Shown: positions 11,141 to 33,949 of the stretch, piece by piece
How the letters are laid out: every line of letters begins with the position of its first letter
Position numbering within the stretch: the first letter of the stretch is position 1
NCBI GenBank assembly: GCA_019686175.1
Contig: JADGHJ010000009.1
Span: forward strand, 1 to 33,949
From: Chloroflexota bacterium
GTDB taxonomy: Bacteria > Chloroflexota > UBA6077 > JAJPHF01
Direction: 5' to 3'
DNA length: 33,949 nucleotides
Made by a program: the position numbers and the translations under genes
Notes under the pieces: model-generated
What the model was told of the DNA's origin: nothing
The model's database searches: none
What the model saw: only the letters and a program-made list of their open reading frames with translations

Positions 11141-12291
11141 GCGCGCGGACGATTCTCTACCTCAACGCCACAGCCGAGCTGGGCGGCGCCGACACCGACC
11201 TGTTCGCCACCGTGCGGGCGCTCGATCGCACACGCTTCACGCCCATTGTGGTGCTGCCCGGTCCGGGGCCGTTCGACGAGGCGTACGCGCGCCTGGGCGT
11301 GGAGGTGCTCCACCTGCCGCTGCCGGCGGTCACGCGCGCCGCGCGGCCACGGCAGCTCCTGCGGGATACGGTCCCGAGCGTCAGCCGGCTGCACCGCCTG
11401 ATCCGCGAGCGCGGCGTCGATCTGGTGTACACCAACTCACTGCTGCTCCTCACGGGCGGGATCGCGGCGCGCCTCGCGGGCCGGCCGGCGCTGTGGCACA
11501 GCGGTGAGTTCCTCGACCGTCCGCGACTGGTCGGGCAGGCGCTGTACTGGACCACGGCGGCGCTGGCCAGCCGGATCATTGTCAGCTCGGCCGCGGTGCG
11601 CGCGCGGTTCCCACGCTGGGCGCAGCGCAAGATCGACGTGGTGCACAACGGGATCGACCTGCAGCGCTTCCATCCCGACCGCGACGGTACCGCCACCCGC
11701 GTCGCGCTCGGCATCCCCTGCGAGGCGCCCGTGGTCGGCTTCGTCGGCCGGTTCATCCCCTGGAAGGGAGCCGAGCTGTTCGTCGAGATGGCCGCGCAGG
11801 TGCGCCGGGCTGTGCCCGGCACGCACTTCTTGATCGTGGGCTCGCGGCTGGCGGCCTATCCCGATTACCTGCCGCGCCTCCAGGCGCGCATCGACGCCCT
11901 TGGTCTGGCCGGCTGCACGACCGTCCTGGTCGATCGGCGAGATATCCCCGACCTGCTCGCGGCGATGGACGTCTTCGTGCACTGCTCGTTGCGGCCGGAG
12001 CCGTTCGGGATCGTCATCGTCGAGGCGATGGCCGCGGGCAAGCCGGTGGTGGCGGTGGGCGCGGGCGGCGTGCCCGAGATCATCGACCGCCCGGAGGTGG
12101 GCCGTTTGGTCCCCCTGGGCGACCGCGCTGCAACGGCGGCCGCCGTGACTGAGCTGCTCCGCAACCCCAGCGACGCCGAAGCCCTCGGCCGCGCCGCCCG
12201 CGACCACGTCGTGGGCCGCTTCGACATCGCGCGGGTCACCGCCCGCGTGGAGTCAATCTACGAGCGGGCTCTTGTTGCTTCGGCACATTAG
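11137..12291 (+). CDS. Glycosyltransferase family 4 (GT-B)
   Basis: 384 residues. N-terminal GT-B domain with the Gly-rich loop TAELGGADTDL; C-terminal donor domain beginning VGFVGRFIPWKGAELFVE and carrying RPEPFGIVIVEAMAAGKPVV with the E-x7-E motif, followed by GAGGVPEII. Cytoplasmic and retaining by family. It starts inside the stop of the acyltransferase gene (ATGA, 11137-11140), so the three genes 9279-12291 form one coupled block. It is the last gene before a hairpin at 12315-12354. Donor and acceptor are unknown. Confidence 0.9.
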   Translation: MSARTILYLNATAELGGADTDLFATVRALDRTRFTPIVVLPGPGPFDEAYARLGVEVLHLPLPAVTRAARPRQLLRDTVPSVSRLHRLIRERGVDLVYTNSLLLLTGGIAARLAGRPALWHSGEFLDRPRLVGQALYWTTAALASRIIVSSAAVRARFPRWAQRKIDVVHNGIDLQRFHPDRDGTATRVALGIPCEAPVVGFVGRFIPWKGAELFVEMAAQVRRAVPGTHFLIVGSRLAAYPDYLPRLQARIDALGLAGCTTVLVDRRDIPDLLAAMDVFVHCSLRPEPFGIVIVEAMAAGKPVVAVGAGGVPEIIDRPEVGRLVPLGDRAATAAAVTELLRNPSDAEALGRAARDHVVGRFDIARVTARVESIYERALVASAH

Positions 12292-27870: not shown

Positions 27871-29169
27871 TCAGGCCACGTGGCTGGGCGCGAGGGCCGG
27901 CGCGGCTAGCGCCCGCGCTCGCACGCGCTTGAGCACCAGGATCGCCAGCAGGGCCCCGGCCCAGTCGAAGGCAACGGCCAGGAGGAAGATGGGTAGCCAG
28001 CTCCCGGTCGCGCCCTGGACCAGGCTCCCAATGGGCACCAGTAGCGAGGCGGTGCCCTTCGCCGTGTACAGCATCCCGTAGTTGGTCGTGGCGTACTTGG
28101 AGCCGAACAGGTCGCCCGAGATGGCCGGGAACAGGCTGTAGATCTCGCCCCAGGCGAAGAACGTCAGCCCCGACAGCACTACGAACAGCGCCGGCACGTG
28201 CGCGAAGCTGACCAGCAGCAGGATGGCTACACCCTCGAGCCCGAAGGCGATGAACATCGTGTTCTCGCGCCCGATGTGGTCCGATACCCAACCGAAGAAC
28301 GGCCGCGTGAAGCCGTTGAGCACGCGGTCGAGCGACAGGGCAAAGGGCAGTGCCGCGAGGGTGAGGCCGAGGATGGTGACCGGCACGTCAGCCACCCCAT
28401 AGTCGCGCGCGATGGGGCCCAATTGGGCCGTGGCCATCAAGCCGCCCGTGGCGACCATGGTGAACATCACGTACAGCAGCCAGAACACCGGGCTCCGCAG
28501 CGTCTCCAGCGGAGTGTACTCGCGGGTCGTCTGCTGCCGCTCCGGCTTGACCTTGGCCGCGGTCTCCTGCGCGGTGGGCGTGCGCATCAGCAGCGCCATG
28601 ATCAGCACCAGCAGGCCCTGGCCCAGCCCGAACCAGAAGAACGCGGCCTGATAGCCCTGCGACTCGATCATCTCGGCGATGGGCACCACGGTGAGCGCCG
28701 AGCCAGCGCCGAACGCCGCGGCCGTCAGGCCGGCCGCGAGTCCCCGGTGATCAGGGAACCACTTGAGCGCGTTGCCGATGCTGGTGCCGTACACGATGCC
28801 GGCGCCGATACCGCCGATCACGCCGCCGAGCCAGAGGACCGGCAGCGCGTTGGCCTGAGCGTTGAGCACCCAGGCAACGGCCACCAGCACGCCGCCGATC
28901 CCCACGATCAACCGCGGACCGAACCGGTCGACGAGGTACGCCTCGAACGGCACGAGCCACGTCTCGGCGAGTACGAACAGCGTGAACGAGATCTGGATCG
29001 CCGCCTTGCCCCAGTGGAACCGGTCGTCGATCGGGTTGACGAACAGGGTCCAACCGTACTGCAGGTTGGCCACCGCCACCATGGCGATGATGCCGACGAG
29101 CAGCTGAAGCCAGCGGTGGCGCATAGGGCTGGCCGGTGACATGGACACAGAACTCGATGAGAGCGCCAT
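27871..29169 (-). CDS. MFS transporter, oxalate/formate antiporter (OFA) family
   Basis: 432 residues with about twelve membrane helices. MFS motif A-like segments are DRFGPRL (81-87) and GWVSDHIGREN (293-303). Lys371 in YTAKGTAS and Arg289 in NGFTRPFFGW are spaced much like the oxalate-binding Arg and Lys of OxlT (from memory). OFA members exchange or import small mono- and dicarboxylates. The start is set by an AGGAGGAG sequence about ten bases before ATG 29169 on the minus strand; the frame is open further upstream but that extension is Ser/Arg-rich and unlikely. It probably shares the promoter at 29724-29751 with the small protein upstream. Confidence 0.9.
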   Translation of the reverse strand: MALSSSSVSMSPASPMRHRWLQLLVGIIAMVAVANLQYGWTLFVNPIDDRFHWGKAAIQISFTLFVLAETWLVPFEAYLVDRFGPRLIVGIGGVLVAVAWVLNAQANALPVLWLGGVIGGIGAGIVYGTSIGNALKWFPDHRGLAAGLTAAAFGAGSALTVVPIAEMIESQGYQAAFFWFGLGQGLLVLIMALLMRTPTAQETAAKVKPERQQTTREYTPLETLRSPVFWLLYVMFTMVATGGLMATAQLGPIARDYGVADVPVTILGLTLAALPFALSLDRVLNGFTRPFFGWVSDHIGRENTMFIAFGLEGVAILLLVSFAHVPALFVVLSGLTFFAWGEIYSLFPAISGDLFGSKYATTNYGMLYTAKGTASLLVPIGSLVQGATGSWLPIFLLAVAFDWAGALLAILVLKRVRARALAAPALAPSHVA

Positions 29170-29292
29170 AGGTTGTCTACTCCTCCTGCATCCCCTAGAG
29201 CTACTCGGGCGCCATTCCCGCGACCACCAGCCGCCAGAACGCCGAGCAGACGGCGGCAGCATGGCGGGCACAGCAGTCGGCGGCCGCGCCGA

Positions 29293-29640
29293 TCAGCAGC
29301 GCAGCGGGTACCAGGTGGGGCGCGCCGGCCTGGGCGCCGTGGCGCACGGCGCGAATCCGGCGCGGCAATCCGCCCGTGAGAGGAGCGCGAAGACAGTGAG
29401 GGCGCCGGCCAGGGGCGCGCGTGGGAGATCGTCGGTCGCGTCGGTCAGGCTACAGAGCGCGGCCGCTGGCAGGCCGAAGGGGCGCCCGTGGCCGGCCGCG
29501 GCCACGAGCGCGCTGGCCGAGGGGAGTTCCCAAGCCGCAGCGACGCTGTTCGGCGCGGGAGGCAGCAGGGCAGCGACAAGGACGGTACAACCCGCCAGGA
29601 GAGCCAGCAGCCGCCAACGCCCCGCCCGCCGCGTGTTCAC
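29293..29640 (-). CDS. Small membrane or exported hypothetical protein
   Basis: 115 residues, not recognised. A basic N-terminus followed by a hydrophobic helix (about 11-28) looks like a signal anchor; a second hydrophobic stretch is near 76-88, and five cysteines are present (18, 63, 92, 98, 115). It is 123 bases upstream of the MFS gene on the same strand and directly downstream of a near-consensus promoter (29724-29751), which supports it being transcribed. The ribosome-binding site is weak. It could be an accessory protein of the transporter, or the region could be a long leader. Confidence 0.42.
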   Translation of the reverse strand: MNTRRAGRWRLLALLAGCTVLVAALLPPAPNSVAAAWELPSASALVAAAGHGRPFGLPAAALCSLTDATDDLPRAPLAGALTVFALLSRADCRAGFAPCATAPRPARPTWYPLRC

Positions 29641-29674
29641 CTCGCCGCCTCACCGCTGAGACGTTCGGTATTGG

Positions 29675-29699
29675 CCTTATGGCCTGACCGCCTTATGGC
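29675..29699. repeat. Two direct copies of CCTTATGGC in a promoter leader
   Basis: CCTTATGGC occurs at 29675-29683 and 29691-29699, 16 bases apart, between the minus-strand start site and the small-protein start codon. The spacing suggests a tandem operator, possibly for the divergently encoded regulator. Confidence 0.4.
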
Positions 29700-29723
29700 T
29701 TGGCCAGCTTGCGGTTGGCCCGT

Positions 29724-29751
29724 AGTATAGCGCGGCTGTGCGGGCTGTCAA
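29724..29751 (-). promoter_or_regulatory. Near-consensus sigma-70 promoter facing the MFS side
   Basis: On the minus strand: TTGACA (29751-29746), 16-base spacer, TATACT (29729-29724). The -35 is perfect and the -10 matches five of six. It would drive 29293-29640 and probably the MFS gene. Confidence 0.65.
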
Positions 29752-29770
29752 GACTAACCGCTCGCGTATG

Positions 29771-29776
29771 TATACT
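29771..29776 (+). promoter_or_regulatory. -10 element of the regulator-tup operon, leaderless-type
   Basis: TATACT lies six bases before ATG 29783, so transcription would begin at or next to the start codon. No good -35 is seen at normal spacing (best: CTGTCA at 29745-29750, 20-base spacer). No Shine-Dalgarno sequence precedes the ATG. Confidence 0.45.
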
Positions 29777-29782
29777 TGTCCC

Positions 29783-30913
29783 ATGACAGATCAGACAATC
29801 GGCCACCGAACTGCACCGGACGGTTATCGGGCGATCGCCGCGGCGCTCGTCCATCAGATCGCCGCGGGCGATCTGGTGCCCGGCACTCGCCTGCCGCCCG
29901 TGCGCGAGGCCGCCGCGCGCTGGGGGGTGAACGTCAACACCGTGCAGCGCGCCTACGCGCACCTTGCGGCACAAGGACTGGTGGAGGCGCGCCCCGGCCG
30001 GGGCACCCGGGTGGCGCCAGCCGCGGCGCAGGCCGCGGCTGGGGCACGGGCCGCACGGCTGCACGTGCTGGTGGGTGAGGCGCTGAGCGGCGCACTCGCG
30101 CTGGGCTACCGGCCGCCAGAGATCGCCGCTGCGTTCACGGCGCAGCTCGCGCGCTGGCAGGCGGCACGGCAGCGGCGAGACGACCGCGCCCCGGCCTCGG
30201 GCCGCCCGCGGGGCGTGCGACTGGCGGGCAGCCACGATCTGTGCCTGGAGGTGCTGGTAGGGCAGCTGCGCGCTGCTCGGCCGCGCTGGCCCGTCTACTG
30301 GCGGCCGTCGAGCAGCCTGGCAGGCCTGTTCGCGCTGGCAACCGACGCCTGCGACCTGGCCGGCACGCATCTGCTGGATGCGGCCACCGGGGAGTACAAC
30401 GCGCCGTTCGTCGAGCGCCTGCTGCCGGGCGAGCCGGTGCTCTTGGTCACGGTAGCCGAGCGGGAGCAGGGCCTGCTGGTCGCGCCGGGCAACCCTGCGG
30501 GCGTGCGCGAGGTGCGAGACCTGGCGCGGCGGGGCGTGCGGTTCGTCAACCGGCCCCGCGGCAGCGGCACCCGCCTGCTGTGCGATCAGCTGCTGGCCGC
30601 GGCGGGGGTATCCCCCTCGACCGTGAACGGCTACGACCGCGAGGCGCCGACGCATCTGGCCGTAGCGGCCGCCGTGGCCGCCGGCACGGCCGATGTGGGG
30701 CTCGGCATCCGGGCGGCGGCACAGGCGGCAGGACTCGACTTCGTGCCGCTGGCGCGCGAGCGCTACGAGCTGGCGCTGCGTGCCGCACGTCAGGACCGCC
30801 CGGGGGTGGCTGCGGTGTTGGCGGCGCTGCGCACGCCGGCGTTCCGTGCGGCCGCGGGCATACTGGGCGGCTACGATCCGACGCAGGCCGGCAGCATCCG
30901 CCGCGTCGGGTGA
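29783..30913 (+). CDS. GntR-type regulator fused to a PBP-like (molybdate/tungstate-type) sensor domain
   Basis: 376 residues. An N-terminal winged helix-turn-helix (about 12-80) is of GntR type: GTRLPPVREAAARWGVNVNTV with the wing GLVEARPGRGTRV. After an Ala/Arg-rich linker, residues about 145-365 form a periplasmic-binding-protein-like domain (PF12727 pattern) with TGEYN, EQGLLVAPGNPAG, FVNRPRGSGTRLL and VAAGTADVGLGI. Such one-component regulators often accompany oxyanion transporters and are thought to sense molybdate or tungstate. ATG 29783 was chosen because a -10 box lies just before it; in-frame GTG 29738 and ATG 29768 precede that box or overlap it. The next gene is tupA. Confidence 0.85.
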   Translation: MTDQTIGHRTAPDGYRAIAAALVHQIAAGDLVPGTRLPPVREAAARWGVNVNTVQRAYAHLAAQGLVEARPGRGTRVAPAAAQAAAGARAARLHVLVGEALSGALALGYRPPEIAAAFTAQLARWQAARQRRDDRAPASGRPRGVRLAGSHDLCLEVLVGQLRAARPRWPVYWRPSSSLAGLFALATDACDLAGTHLLDAATGEYNAPFVERLLPGEPVLLVTVAEREQGLLVAPGNPAGVREVRDLARRGVRFVNRPRGSGTRLLCDQLLAAAGVSPSTVNGYDREAPTHLAVAAAVAAGTADVGLGIRAAAQAAGLDFVPLARERYELALRAARQDRPGVAAVLAALRTPAFRAAAGILGGYDPTQAGSIRRVG

Positions 30914-30934
30914 GCGGGGAAGGAGGAGATGTCG

Positions 30935-31822
30935 ATGGCGGCAGAGCGCGGTCTACCGAGCGTTCGGCGGCGGCTGCTGATAGCCCTGGTCGCCCTGCTC
31001 ACTAGCACGCTGCTGCTCCAGCAGCCCGCCACGGGCGCGCAGGGCCCCGCACCGACCGAGGTGATCCTGGCCACCACCACTAGCACCTACGATACGGGCC
31101 TGCTCGACTACCTGCACCCCCGGTTCGAGCGCGCGACCGGCTACCAGGTGAAGACCATCAGCGTGGGCACCGGCCAAGCGCTGGCGCTGGGCGAGCGCGG
31201 CGAGGCGGACGTGGTCCTGGTCCACGCGCCCGAGGCCGAGCGTGCCTGGATGGCGGCCGGCCACGGCACGCGGCGGCTGCTGGTCATGTACAACGACTTC
31301 GTCCTGGTCGGGCCGCCGAGCGATCCCGCGGGCGCCCGGGGCCAGCCGATCGGCGACGCCCTCCGCGCGGTGGCCAGCAGCGCGAGCACCTTCGTCAGCC
31401 GCGGCGACAACTCGGGGACCCACATCCTGGAGCGGCAACTCTGGCAGCGCGTGGGCCTCACCCCGGAGGGACAGCGCTGGTACCTGGCGGTCGGCCAGGG
31501 CATGGGCCAGACCCTGAACATCGCCAGCGACCGCCAGGCATATACCCTCACCGATCGAGGCACCTGGCTCGCGCGGCGCAACACGCTCGACCTTGCGCTG
31601 CTGGTGGAAGGCGACCCCGTGCTACGCAACATCTATCACGTGATGCCCGTCAACCCGGCCAAGTCACCGCATATCAACAACGCGGGCGCCGAGGCGTACG
31701 CCGACTGGCTCGTGGGCCCGGAGGCGCAGGCGGCGATCGAGGCGTTCGGCCGCGACCGCTACGGCCAGTCGCTGTTCATCCCGGCGGCGGGGCGGAGCGA
31801 GGCGGAGTTGCTGGGTGAGTGA
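30935..31822 (+). CDS. tupA: Tungstate ABC transporter, substrate-binding protein TupA
   Basis: 295 residues. A signal peptide (about 1-35, ending near ATGAQ) exports it. TupA hallmarks are ATTTSTYDTGLLD (TTTS at 47-50), SRGDNSGTH (155-163) and YTLTDRGTW; the Thr/Ser and Arg residues bind the tungstate oxyanion. AGGAGGAG at 30921-30928 is six bases before ATG 30935; ATG 30929 directly abuts the site and is less likely. It follows the sensor gene by 21 bases and leads into tupB and tupC, giving a complete importer. Tungstate is used for tungstopterin enzymes. Confidence 0.93.
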   Translation: MAAERGLPSVRRRLLIALVALLTSTLLLQQPATGAQGPAPTEVILATTTSTYDTGLLDYLHPRFERATGYQVKTISVGTGQALALGERGEADVVLVHAPEAERAWMAAGHGTRRLLVMYNDFVLVGPPSDPAGARGQPIGDALRAVASSASTFVSRGDNSGTHILERQLWQRVGLTPEGQRWYLAVGQGMGQTLNIASDRQAYTLTDRGTWLARRNTLDLALLVEGDPVLRNIYHVMPVNPAKSPHINNAGAEAYADWLVGPEAQAAIEAFGRDRYGQSLFIPAAGRSEAELLGE

Positions 31823-31828
31823 GCGGCG

Positions 31829-32527
31829 ATGGACCTGCTGGGCAGCGCGGTGGTGCAGGCCGTGCGGCTGCTGCTGAGCGGCGACGGCGAGACGTGGCAG
31901 GTCACTCTGCTGAGCTTGCGCGTGTCGCTGACCGCGACGGCGATCAGCCTGCTGGCGGGTGTACCGCTAGGCACCTGGCTCGCGCTGGCCCGCTTCCCGG
32001 GCCGCGGGCTGCTGCTGGCGCTGGTGAACACCGGCATGGGGATGCCGCCGGTGGTCGCGGGCCTCGTGATCACCATCCTGCTGTGGCGGACGGGGCCGCT
32101 GGGGCAGCTCCGGCTGCTGTACACGCCGACGGCGATCGTGATCGCGCAGGTGGTGCTGGCGCTGCCGGTGGTGATCGGGCTGACAGTGGCAGCCATCCAG
32201 CAGCTCAACCCGCGGCTGCGGCTGCAGATCCTGGCGCTGGGTGCCACACGCTGGCAGTACCTCTGGCTGCTCGTGCGCGAGGCGCGACTACCGCTACTGG
32301 CGGCGGTGATGGCCGCGTTTGGGGCCGTGATCAGCGAGGTGGGCGCGGCGATGATGGTGGGCGGCAACATCCAGGGGCAGACGCGCGTGCTGACCACGGC
32401 GACCGTGCTGGAGACCAGCAAGGGCAACTTCGACCTGGCGCTGGCCCTGGGGCTGATCCTGCTCGTGCTCGTCTACGCTGTCAACCTCGCGCTGACCTGG
32501 ATCCAGCAACGGAGCCGGCCGCTGTGA
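31829..32527 (+). CDS. tupB: Tungstate ABC transporter permease TupB
   Basis: 232 residues with about five to six membrane helices and the BPD_transp_1 fold. The EAA-type coupling loop is around ALGATRWQYLWLLVREARLP, followed by AFGAVISEVGAAMMVGGNI, typical of TupB/ModB-like permeases. It starts six bases after tupA. It forms the membrane channel with TupC. Confidence 0.93.
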   Translation: MDLLGSAVVQAVRLLLSGDGETWQVTLLSLRVSLTATAISLLAGVPLGTWLALARFPGRGLLLALVNTGMGMPPVVAGLVITILLWRTGPLGQLRLLYTPTAIVIAQVVLALPVVIGLTVAAIQQLNPRLRLQILALGATRWQYLWLLVREARLPLLAAVMAAFGAVISEVGAAMMVGGNIQGQTRVLTTATVLETSKGNFDLALALGLILLVLVYAVNLALTWIQQRSRPL

Positions 32528-32615
32528 GAAGGTGCTGGAGTGCCACGAGCGGCTGCAGTCGGGAGCGGATAGGGCGTGCGGCTGCGCCCGAGAGAGCCGG
32601 GGGCATGGGACGGCG

Positions 32616-33383
32616 ATGAGCGACGCACGGCCCGTGCCCGAGCCGCCCCTGATCGCGCTGCGCGACGTGCGCGTGCGGCGCGGGGGACGGGTCGTGCTCG
32701 ACGTGTCGGCGCTGACGGTGGCGCGCGGCGAGCGGCTGGCGATCGTGGGGCCGAACGGCGCGGGCAAGAGCACGCTGCTGCAAGTAATGGCGCTGCTGCT
32801 GGCGCCGGAGCGGGGCGAGGTGCGCTTCGCCGGCGAGCGGGTAGACGCAGGGCGGAATCCGGTGCCGACGCGACGGCGGATGGCCATGGTGTTTCAAGAG
32901 CCGCTGCTGTTCGACACGAGCGTGTTCGAGAACGTGGCGAGCGGCCTGCGCCTGCGCGGAGTGCCGGAGCGGGAGGTCCGGGCGCGCGTGACAGCGTGGC
33001 TGGAGCGCCTGGGCATCGCGGGGCTGACGCGGCGGCCGGCGCGGAGCCTGTCGGGGGGGGAAGCGCGGCGCACGAGTCTGGCGCGGGCGCTGGTGCTGGA
33101 GCCGGAGCTGCTGCTGCTGGACGAGCCGTTCAGCGCGCTGGACTACCCGACACGGCAGGGGCTGCTAGGCGAGCTACCGGGGCTGCTGGCGGCGGCGCGA
33201 ACGACGGCGGTGCTAGTAACGCACGACCCCGTGGAGGCGCTGTGGGTGGGCCAACGCGCGGTCGGGCTGGCGGAAGGACGGATAGTGGCCGAGGGAGCGG
33301 TGGGCGAGGTGTTGGCGGCGACAGGCCTGGGAGCTGGCGTCCTGCCGGCGAGCGCGATGCAGCCGGGGCAAGCGGTCAGGTGA
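32616..33383 (+). CDS. tupC: Tungstate ABC transporter ATP-binding protein TupC
   Basis: 255 residues. Walker A GPNGAGKS (45-52), Q-loop Gln94 in VFQEP, signature LSGGE (145-149), Walker B LLLLDEP (Asp169-Glu170) and H-loop His203 are all intact. It has no C-terminal TOBE extension, in keeping with TupC-type rather than ModC-type ATPases. An 88-base gap separates it from tupB, longer than other spacings in the operon, and the upstream in-frame extension to 32532 looks non-coding. Its 3' end overlaps the convergent DUF3237 gene by eight bases. Confidence 0.92.
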   Translation: MSDARPVPEPPLIALRDVRVRRGGRVVLDVSALTVARGERLAIVGPNGAGKSTLLQVMALLLAPERGEVRFAGERVDAGRNPVPTRRRMAMVFQEPLLFDTSVFENVASGLRLRGVPEREVRARVTAWLERLGIAGLTRRPARSLSGGEARRTSLARALVLEPELLLLDEPFSALDYPTRQGLLGELPGLLAAARTTAVLVTHDPVEALWVGQRAVGLAEGRIVAEGAVGEVLAATGLGAGVLPASAMQPGQAVR

Positions 33384-33858
33384 GCTGATAGGCGTCGTAG
33401 AGGACGCGGTTGGCGAGGCGCACGGCGGCAGCGACGAACAGGCGGGTAGTGAGCCAGCGGTAGGCCGGGTGGCCGGTCTCGAAGGTGACGCCGACGCGGA
33501 AGTAGTAGGCGGAGGGATCGACGACCTCGCCGGCGGCGATGCGCTCGAGGACCGCGGGCGGGCCCGAGCGGACGCCACGGGTGGCGATATAGACGACAGC
33601 GTCGTCATGGGTGCGGAGAGTATAGCGTGTATCGATGAGGGCCGTGCCGTCGGGAAGGACGAGCTGCCAGTCGGCGCCCCCGGGGAGGATAGTGCCCTGG
33701 AAGGCGGGGCCATGGAAGTGACCGCCGAGGATGGGGATGACGCGGCGACGGCCGGTGCCGACCTCACCGAGGTCGAGGGGGTCACCGATAGCGACGTCGA
33801 AGCGCGCAAGGTGCTGGAGCGCGGGGACGGGAGGGGTAGGTACAGCAGGCCGGGCCAT
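33376..33858 (-). CDS. DUF3237 (UPF0311) family protein
   Basis: 160 residues. The family pattern is clear: GRRRVIPILGGHFHGP, GTILPGGADWQLV, DTRYTLRTHDDA and DPSAYYFRVGVTFETGHPAY. The family is a small soluble beta-barrel of unknown function, often near aromatic-degradation or ester metabolism genes. AGGGAGG precedes the ATG at 33858 by about eight bases. The 91 bases upstream to the window end show no clear promoter. Confidence 0.88.
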   Translation of the reverse strand: MARPAVPTPPVPALQHLARFDVAIGDPLDLGEVGTGRRRVIPILGGHFHGPAFQGTILPGGADWQLVLPDGTALIDTRYTLRTHDDAVVYIATRGVRSGPPAVLERIAAGEVVDPSAYYFRVGVTFETGHPAYRWLTTRLFVAAAVRLANRVLYDAYQLT

Positions 33859-33949
33859 GGCGAGAGCCTCCCTAGCGTGCAGGCCGTGTGGAGCGGATGA
33901 CAGACCGCACCTTGGCCTTCAGTATCCCTCAAGCGGATCGAAGGACTGC

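Follow-up and report, generated by a model that had tools for sequence, protein, structure and literature searches.

In the Chloroflexota genome examined here, the genes for a tungstate-type ABC transporter (tupABC) are headed by the gene for a regulator with a GntR DNA-binding domain and a PBP_like sensor, and they diverge from oxlT, which encodes an oxalate/formate antiporter. The explanation that we consider probable is that the regulator-tupABC operon is self-repressed through an inverted repeat, TTGTC-N13-GACAA at 29776-29798, when tungstate is plentiful, and that oxlT has a promoter of its own on which the regulator does not act directly. The DNA analyzed (the window, 33,949 nucleotides) is part of a 4.36-Mb draft genome in 425 contigs. 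An earlier note, made from the letters of the window, had suggested that the regulator might control both sides of the divergent region and so tie tungsten supply to oxalate/formate transport; it made no mention of the repeat. The features on which the argument turns are as follows.

27871-29169, minus strand: oxlT, oxalate/formate MFS antiporter, 432 aa (TIGR04259, 597.2 bits versus a cut-off of 335)
29674-29683 and 29690-29699, minus strand: the sequence GCCTTATGGC, present twice without mismatch at a distance of 16 bp, in the predicted 5' leader of oxlT
29724-29729, minus strand: TATACT, -10 of the oxlT-directed promoter (TTGACA-16-TATACT, score 11/12)
29746-29751, minus strand: TTGACA, -35 of the oxlT-directed promoter, with a 16-bp spacer to the -10
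29771-29776, plus strand: TATACT, -10 of the regulator-tup promoter, continuing into TTGTC
29776-29798, plus strand: predicted operator, the inverted repeat TTGTC-N13-GACAA, overlapping the plus -10 and the regulator start codon
29783-30913, plus strand: regulator, 376 aa, GntR (YtrA-like) winged HTH and PBP_like sensor, from family searches
30929-31822, plus strand: tupA, tungstate-type binding protein (NF041772, 220.6 bits, E 2.3e-65; equivalog cut-off 400)
31829-32527, plus strand: tupB, permease (best named match NF041773, 171.8 bits; cut-off 320)
32616-33383, plus strand: tupC, ABC ATPase (PF00005, E 2.5e-34, cut-off passed)

The regulator and the tup operon

TupA retains the pocket motifs ATTTS and SRGDNSGT, TupB passes the cut-off of the general permease model NF038017 ABC_perm1 (275.4 bits, cut-off 100), and the best NCBIfam match of tupC is tungstate WtpC (160.7 bits, cut-off 440). 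The genes tupB and tupC lie just beyond the interval considered in the earlier note (29641-31822). The gene order regulator-tupA-tupB is kept in five relatives (G003, G002, G005, G017, and G022), and tblastn matches to tupC are found at the corresponding place in the relatives' tup clusters. It is likely that the operon transports tungstate rather than molybdate, but this is not certain because TupA, TupB, and TupC all score below the equivalog cut-offs of NCBIfam. A need for tungsten can plausibly be explained from the gene content of the genome, with oxlT left aside: two genes for a formate dehydrogenase alpha subunit have an in-frame TGA where Sec is placed, tRNA-Sec is matched with 73 bits, and three genes belong to the AFOR family, of which the one on contig C364 matches AFOR_N and AFOR_C strongly. 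By their sequences the formate dehydrogenases may hold either tungsten or molybdenum.

The regulator was described in the earlier note as carrying a tungstate-type binding domain, which agrees with its match to the PBP_like family PF12727 (E 1.6e-70, 236.6 bits) and with its place at the head of the tup operon. Its DNA-binding domain belongs to the GntR family (PF00392, E 2.4e-18, 66 bits), and in a profile search residues 4-119 match GntR structures of YtrA size, including the two-helix dimerization region. A fold search of the PDB with a predicted model of the protein (mean pLDDT 84) gave anion-binding proteins and effector domains of the LysR type; these matches fit a periplasmic-binding-protein fold and do not give the choice of ligand. 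Arg257 and Thr263 of the sensor align with two residues of the oxyanion pocket of Desulfovibrio alaskensis TupA, Arg118 and Thr124, but the sensor carries GSHD where TupA carries TTTS, a replacement that leaves room for molybdate as well as tungstate as its ligand.

The regulator resembles the YtrA subfamily of GntR in its N-terminal 120 residues, in the wide spacing of GT and AC in its candidate operator, and in its association with an ABC-transporter operon, but YtrA proteins end after two helices, whereas this regulator adds a sensor of the PBP_like type, about 230 residues long (PMC4494728). The TaoR family likewise couples a DNA-binding domain to a PBP-like sensor and is tied to tungsten genes, but its DNA-binding domain is of the HTH_17 type (PMC11980592), of which a Pfam scan of the present regulator gave no match; the latter has instead a winged HTH of the GntR family, helices like those of YtrA, and a palindromic candidate operator with wide spacing. 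With ModE it would share the control of an oxyanion ABC transporter in response to oxyanions, but its HTH is different and no TOBE domain was found in the same scan. TaoR is also said, in the study that describes it, to repress tupABC. A literature search found, by the terms searched, no GntR-type regulator of tup genes, and the site described below is a specific candidate for the operator at which a tungstate-type regulator with a GntR domain would act in a sparsely sampled group.

The same genome encodes a second regulator with a PBP_like sensor, in this case with an XRE-type HTH, directly before its modABC set (L062, contig C232, 3196-7067), so that one genome places the same sensor on GntR (tup) and XRE-type (mod) DNA-binding domains. 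In a Coriobacteriia MAG the sensor is fused to an ArsR-type HTH (L021, 5623-6612).

The divergent promoters and the predicted operator

The promoters on the two strands are back to back within 29724-29776, and the compact divergent region proposed in the earlier note is thereby borne out. The near-consensus promoter that it placed on the minus strand at 29724-29751 is exactly in position and scores 11/12; it is the sole match of at least 10/12 in the 33.9-kb window (both strands, spacers of 15-19), and another 134 kb of this genome contained no 11/12 site. The plus -10 box is also present where it was claimed, at 29771-29776, but the -35 of this promoter is poor, matching at best 3/6. With an assumed spacer of 17 bp, the plus -35 region falls at 29748-29753 and thus overlies the minus -35 (29746-29751). 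The start sites estimated from the positions of the hexamers are about 66 bp apart, that of oxlT being predicted at 29717.

The inverted repeat was examined in the regions upstream of the class orthologues of the regulator. In an unbiased search of all 5-base arms at spacings of 0-20, TTGTC-N13-GACAA was the best common palindrome, occurring in 5 of 6 upstream regions, a count to be read with the limit that the motif evidence rests on only six class orthologues; in 60 shuffled sets the same search gave 2-3 of 6 and never more than 3. With one mismatch or none and with its spacing unchanged, the repeat precedes the window's own regulator and those of G003, G005, G017, and G022; it is missing upstream of the G002 orthologue. 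The left arm runs straight on from the -10 (TATACTTGTC) in the window and in two further loci (L058 and L061). By sequence and conservation the repeat fits the wide GT/AC palindrome of the YtrA type; in motifs of that subfamily GT and AC lie far from the center, and the sites are almost never located between divergent operons (PMC4494728). A shorter alternative, TGTC-N4-GACA, is present within the same site of the window. At more distant regulators of the GntR-PBP_like type (L059, L060, and L123-L127) the N13 form was not seen.

Among the matches listed in a search of the whole 4.36-Mb genome with one mismatch permitted, a single one, that of the window, is an exact copy of TTGTC-N13-GACAA; among the one-mismatch sites, 13 of 14 examined fall within open reading frames and 1 outside, with three further sites outside this count. 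In the whole window the N13 search gave one match, at 29776. No N13 match was found upstream of the AFOR, formate dehydrogenase, oxalate oxidoreductase, mod, or oxlT genes, and the 400 bp that precede the start codon of oxlT hold no copy with up to one mismatch at any spacing from 0 to 20. Near-matches with other spacings, N10 (TTGTCAGAGTCTCGCGACAG) at the formate dehydrogenase of contig C280 and N12 upstream of the mod regulator, were discounted because near-matches of arbitrary spacing are expected by chance. On these grounds TTGTC-N13-GACAA is likely to be an operator for autoregulation of the regulator-tupABC operon.

On contig C280 (L072), near 11170 on the minus strand, the gene for a Sec formate dehydrogenase has the promoter TTGACA-17-TACCAT, and the N10 near-match, TTGTC-N10-GACAG, comes just after this promoter; its spacing is unlike that of the tup operator and it may be due to chance. 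At L060, the repeats TTGATGACAAGGCCTTGTCATCAA occur at about 1820-1900 before a regulator of the GntR-PBP_like type, whose gene is located after one for a TupB/ModB-like permease, and are possibly the operator of a related but different regulator.

Control of the two operons

In the preferred explanation, a dimer of the regulator would bind TTGTC-N13-GACAA at 29776-29798, its PBP_like sensor would bind tungstate, and tungstate would be the effector. Because the site takes in the plus -10 as well as the first codon of the regulator, the bound dimer would block the regulator-tup promoter, and plentiful tungstate would prevent initiation. Transcription of the divergent oxlT gene would start from its own near-consensus promoter, independently of the regulator.

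The proposal of the earlier note can be put as direct action of the regulator on each of the two operons, with repression of tup, activation (or repression) of oxlT, and a resulting tie between tungsten supply and oxalate/formate exchange. It has some attractions. The operator center at 29787 precedes the estimated oxlT start by 70 bp, and some activators work from such a distance; TaoR provides the precedent of an HTH and PBP-like regulator described as controlling a tungsten aldehyde oxidoreductase (PMC11980592), and the genome has two Sec formate dehydrogenases. However, the sole predicted operator is located at the plus -10 and start codon, and the oxlT promoter has no copy; the almost complete absence of YtrA-type sites from divergons (PMC4494728) also counts against the proposal, as do the neighborhoods of related genes. 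Orthologues of oxlT (57-63%) in G027, G001, and G013 are in no case near the regulator, adjacency of oxlT and tup occurs in none of the relatives examined, and the gene upstream of the regulator varies, being a sulfatase in L055, an alpha/beta hydrolase in L057, and a PhyH dioxygenase in L061. Direct co-control of tungsten and oxalate genes is therefore unsupported, and we regard it as distinctly improbable. An indirect connection could arise from the promoters themselves: if both are used, polymerase probably cannot hold the two overlapping promoters at one time, so that a repressor on the plus -10 could free the minus promoter and raise oxlT expression at plentiful tungstate. Such exclusion is favored by the coincidence of the two -35 regions and by the distance between the start sites, but the weakness of the plus -35 may make competition negligible, and the idea is read from sequence in a divergent oxlT/tup arrangement that is seen in the source genome only, the sole genome of its family in the comparison; we consider it unlikely. 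The broader scheme in which one operator-bound tungstate sensor both shuts off tup and raises oxalate uptake, whether by freeing the overlapping promoter or by action from -70, appears quite improbable. If such control in opposite directions were true, it would mean that reducing power is derived from oxalate only when tungsten enzymes can be built.

A different doubt concerns the signal. The regulator might answer to molybdate or another oxyanion, or might act as an activator, and not as a tungstate-bound repressor. The substitution of GSHD for the TTTS of TupA would permit this, as would the occurrence of the same PBP_like domain in the XRE-type regulator beside modABC and the results of the fold search, in which anion-binding proteins and LysR-type effector domains favor no ligand. 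On the other side, the regulator goes together with tup genes in the close relatives as well, the equivalents of TupA Arg118 and Thr124 are kept, and an operator that overlaps the -10 occupies the position of a repressor site. We judge this alternative rather unlikely, and self-repression of the regulator-tupABC operon by the tungstate-bound regulator is retained as the preferred explanation.

OxlT, its predicted leader, and its probable partner enzyme

The gene on the minus strand was claimed in the earlier note as that of an OFA transporter, and its TIGR04259 score, far above the cut-off, marks the product as a genuine OxlT-type antiporter that is predicted to exchange oxalate for formate. 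It aligns over nearly its full length with OxlT of Oxalobacter formigenes (PDB 8hpj, E 9.6e-70; PMC10070484), and Gln34, Thr38, Arg272, Trp324, and Lys355 of that structure are retained in the alignment, Arg272 and Lys355 being the oxalate-binding residues. A difference is that the source genome has no oxalyl-CoA decarboxylase above cut-off; an oxalate-oxidoreductase-like enzyme is the likelier partner.

Oxalyl-CoA decarboxylase was considered as a partner of OxlT and rejected, the best match in the genome being 278 bits against a cut-off of 739. In G027 (L128, contig C58, 2471-7563) the oxlT orthologue lies directly after a three-gene oxalate-oxidoreductase-like operon, and for the two of its three genes that were compared with the PDB the best solved relatives are subunits of oxalate oxidoreductase. 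The source genome has an orthologue of this set (72%) on contig C180 (L144, 4574-8173), for which the best NCBIfam matches are the oxalate oxidoreductase alpha, beta, and delta models, all below their cut-offs. The gene order in G027, the orthologues on C180, and the lack of an oxalyl-CoA decarboxylase above cut-off make it the simpler reading that OxlT imports oxalate for an oxalate oxidoreductase; this enzyme, ferredoxin-linked and encoded elsewhere in the genome, is probably what OxlT serves, and the oxalate route to which the genome points is one of oxalate oxidoreductase with OxlT. The suggestion in the earlier note of a link to a tungsten formate dehydrogenase thus stands in part: formate dehydrogenase genes are present, two of them with a Sec UGA, but the G027 gene order favors the oxalate-oxidoreductase-like enzyme as the partner of OxlT.

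The predicted leader of oxlT has features that may bear on its own regulation. The two copies of GCCTTATGGC have a chance expectation of 0.07 in the window, and the pair was not found in the other loci of the source genome that were examined; possibly they are an independent regulatory or RNA element. The first 57 nucleotides of the leader fold with a z of -3.0, and only 1 of 200 shuffles folded as well. A riboswitch was sought by an Rfam scan of 29000-33949, which gave only a match at chance level (E 0.56). The leader also contains a candidate open reading frame of 115 codons (29293-29640, minus strand); it has a lipobox-like LLAGC at its start, its codon-position pattern is atypical, and family searches gave no match. 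A FadR-type operator, TGGTCCGACCA, is absent from the oxlT region and is present before the oxalate oxidoreductase genes. In G027, a GntR gene of the FCD type is divergent to the oxalate-oxidoreductase-like set.
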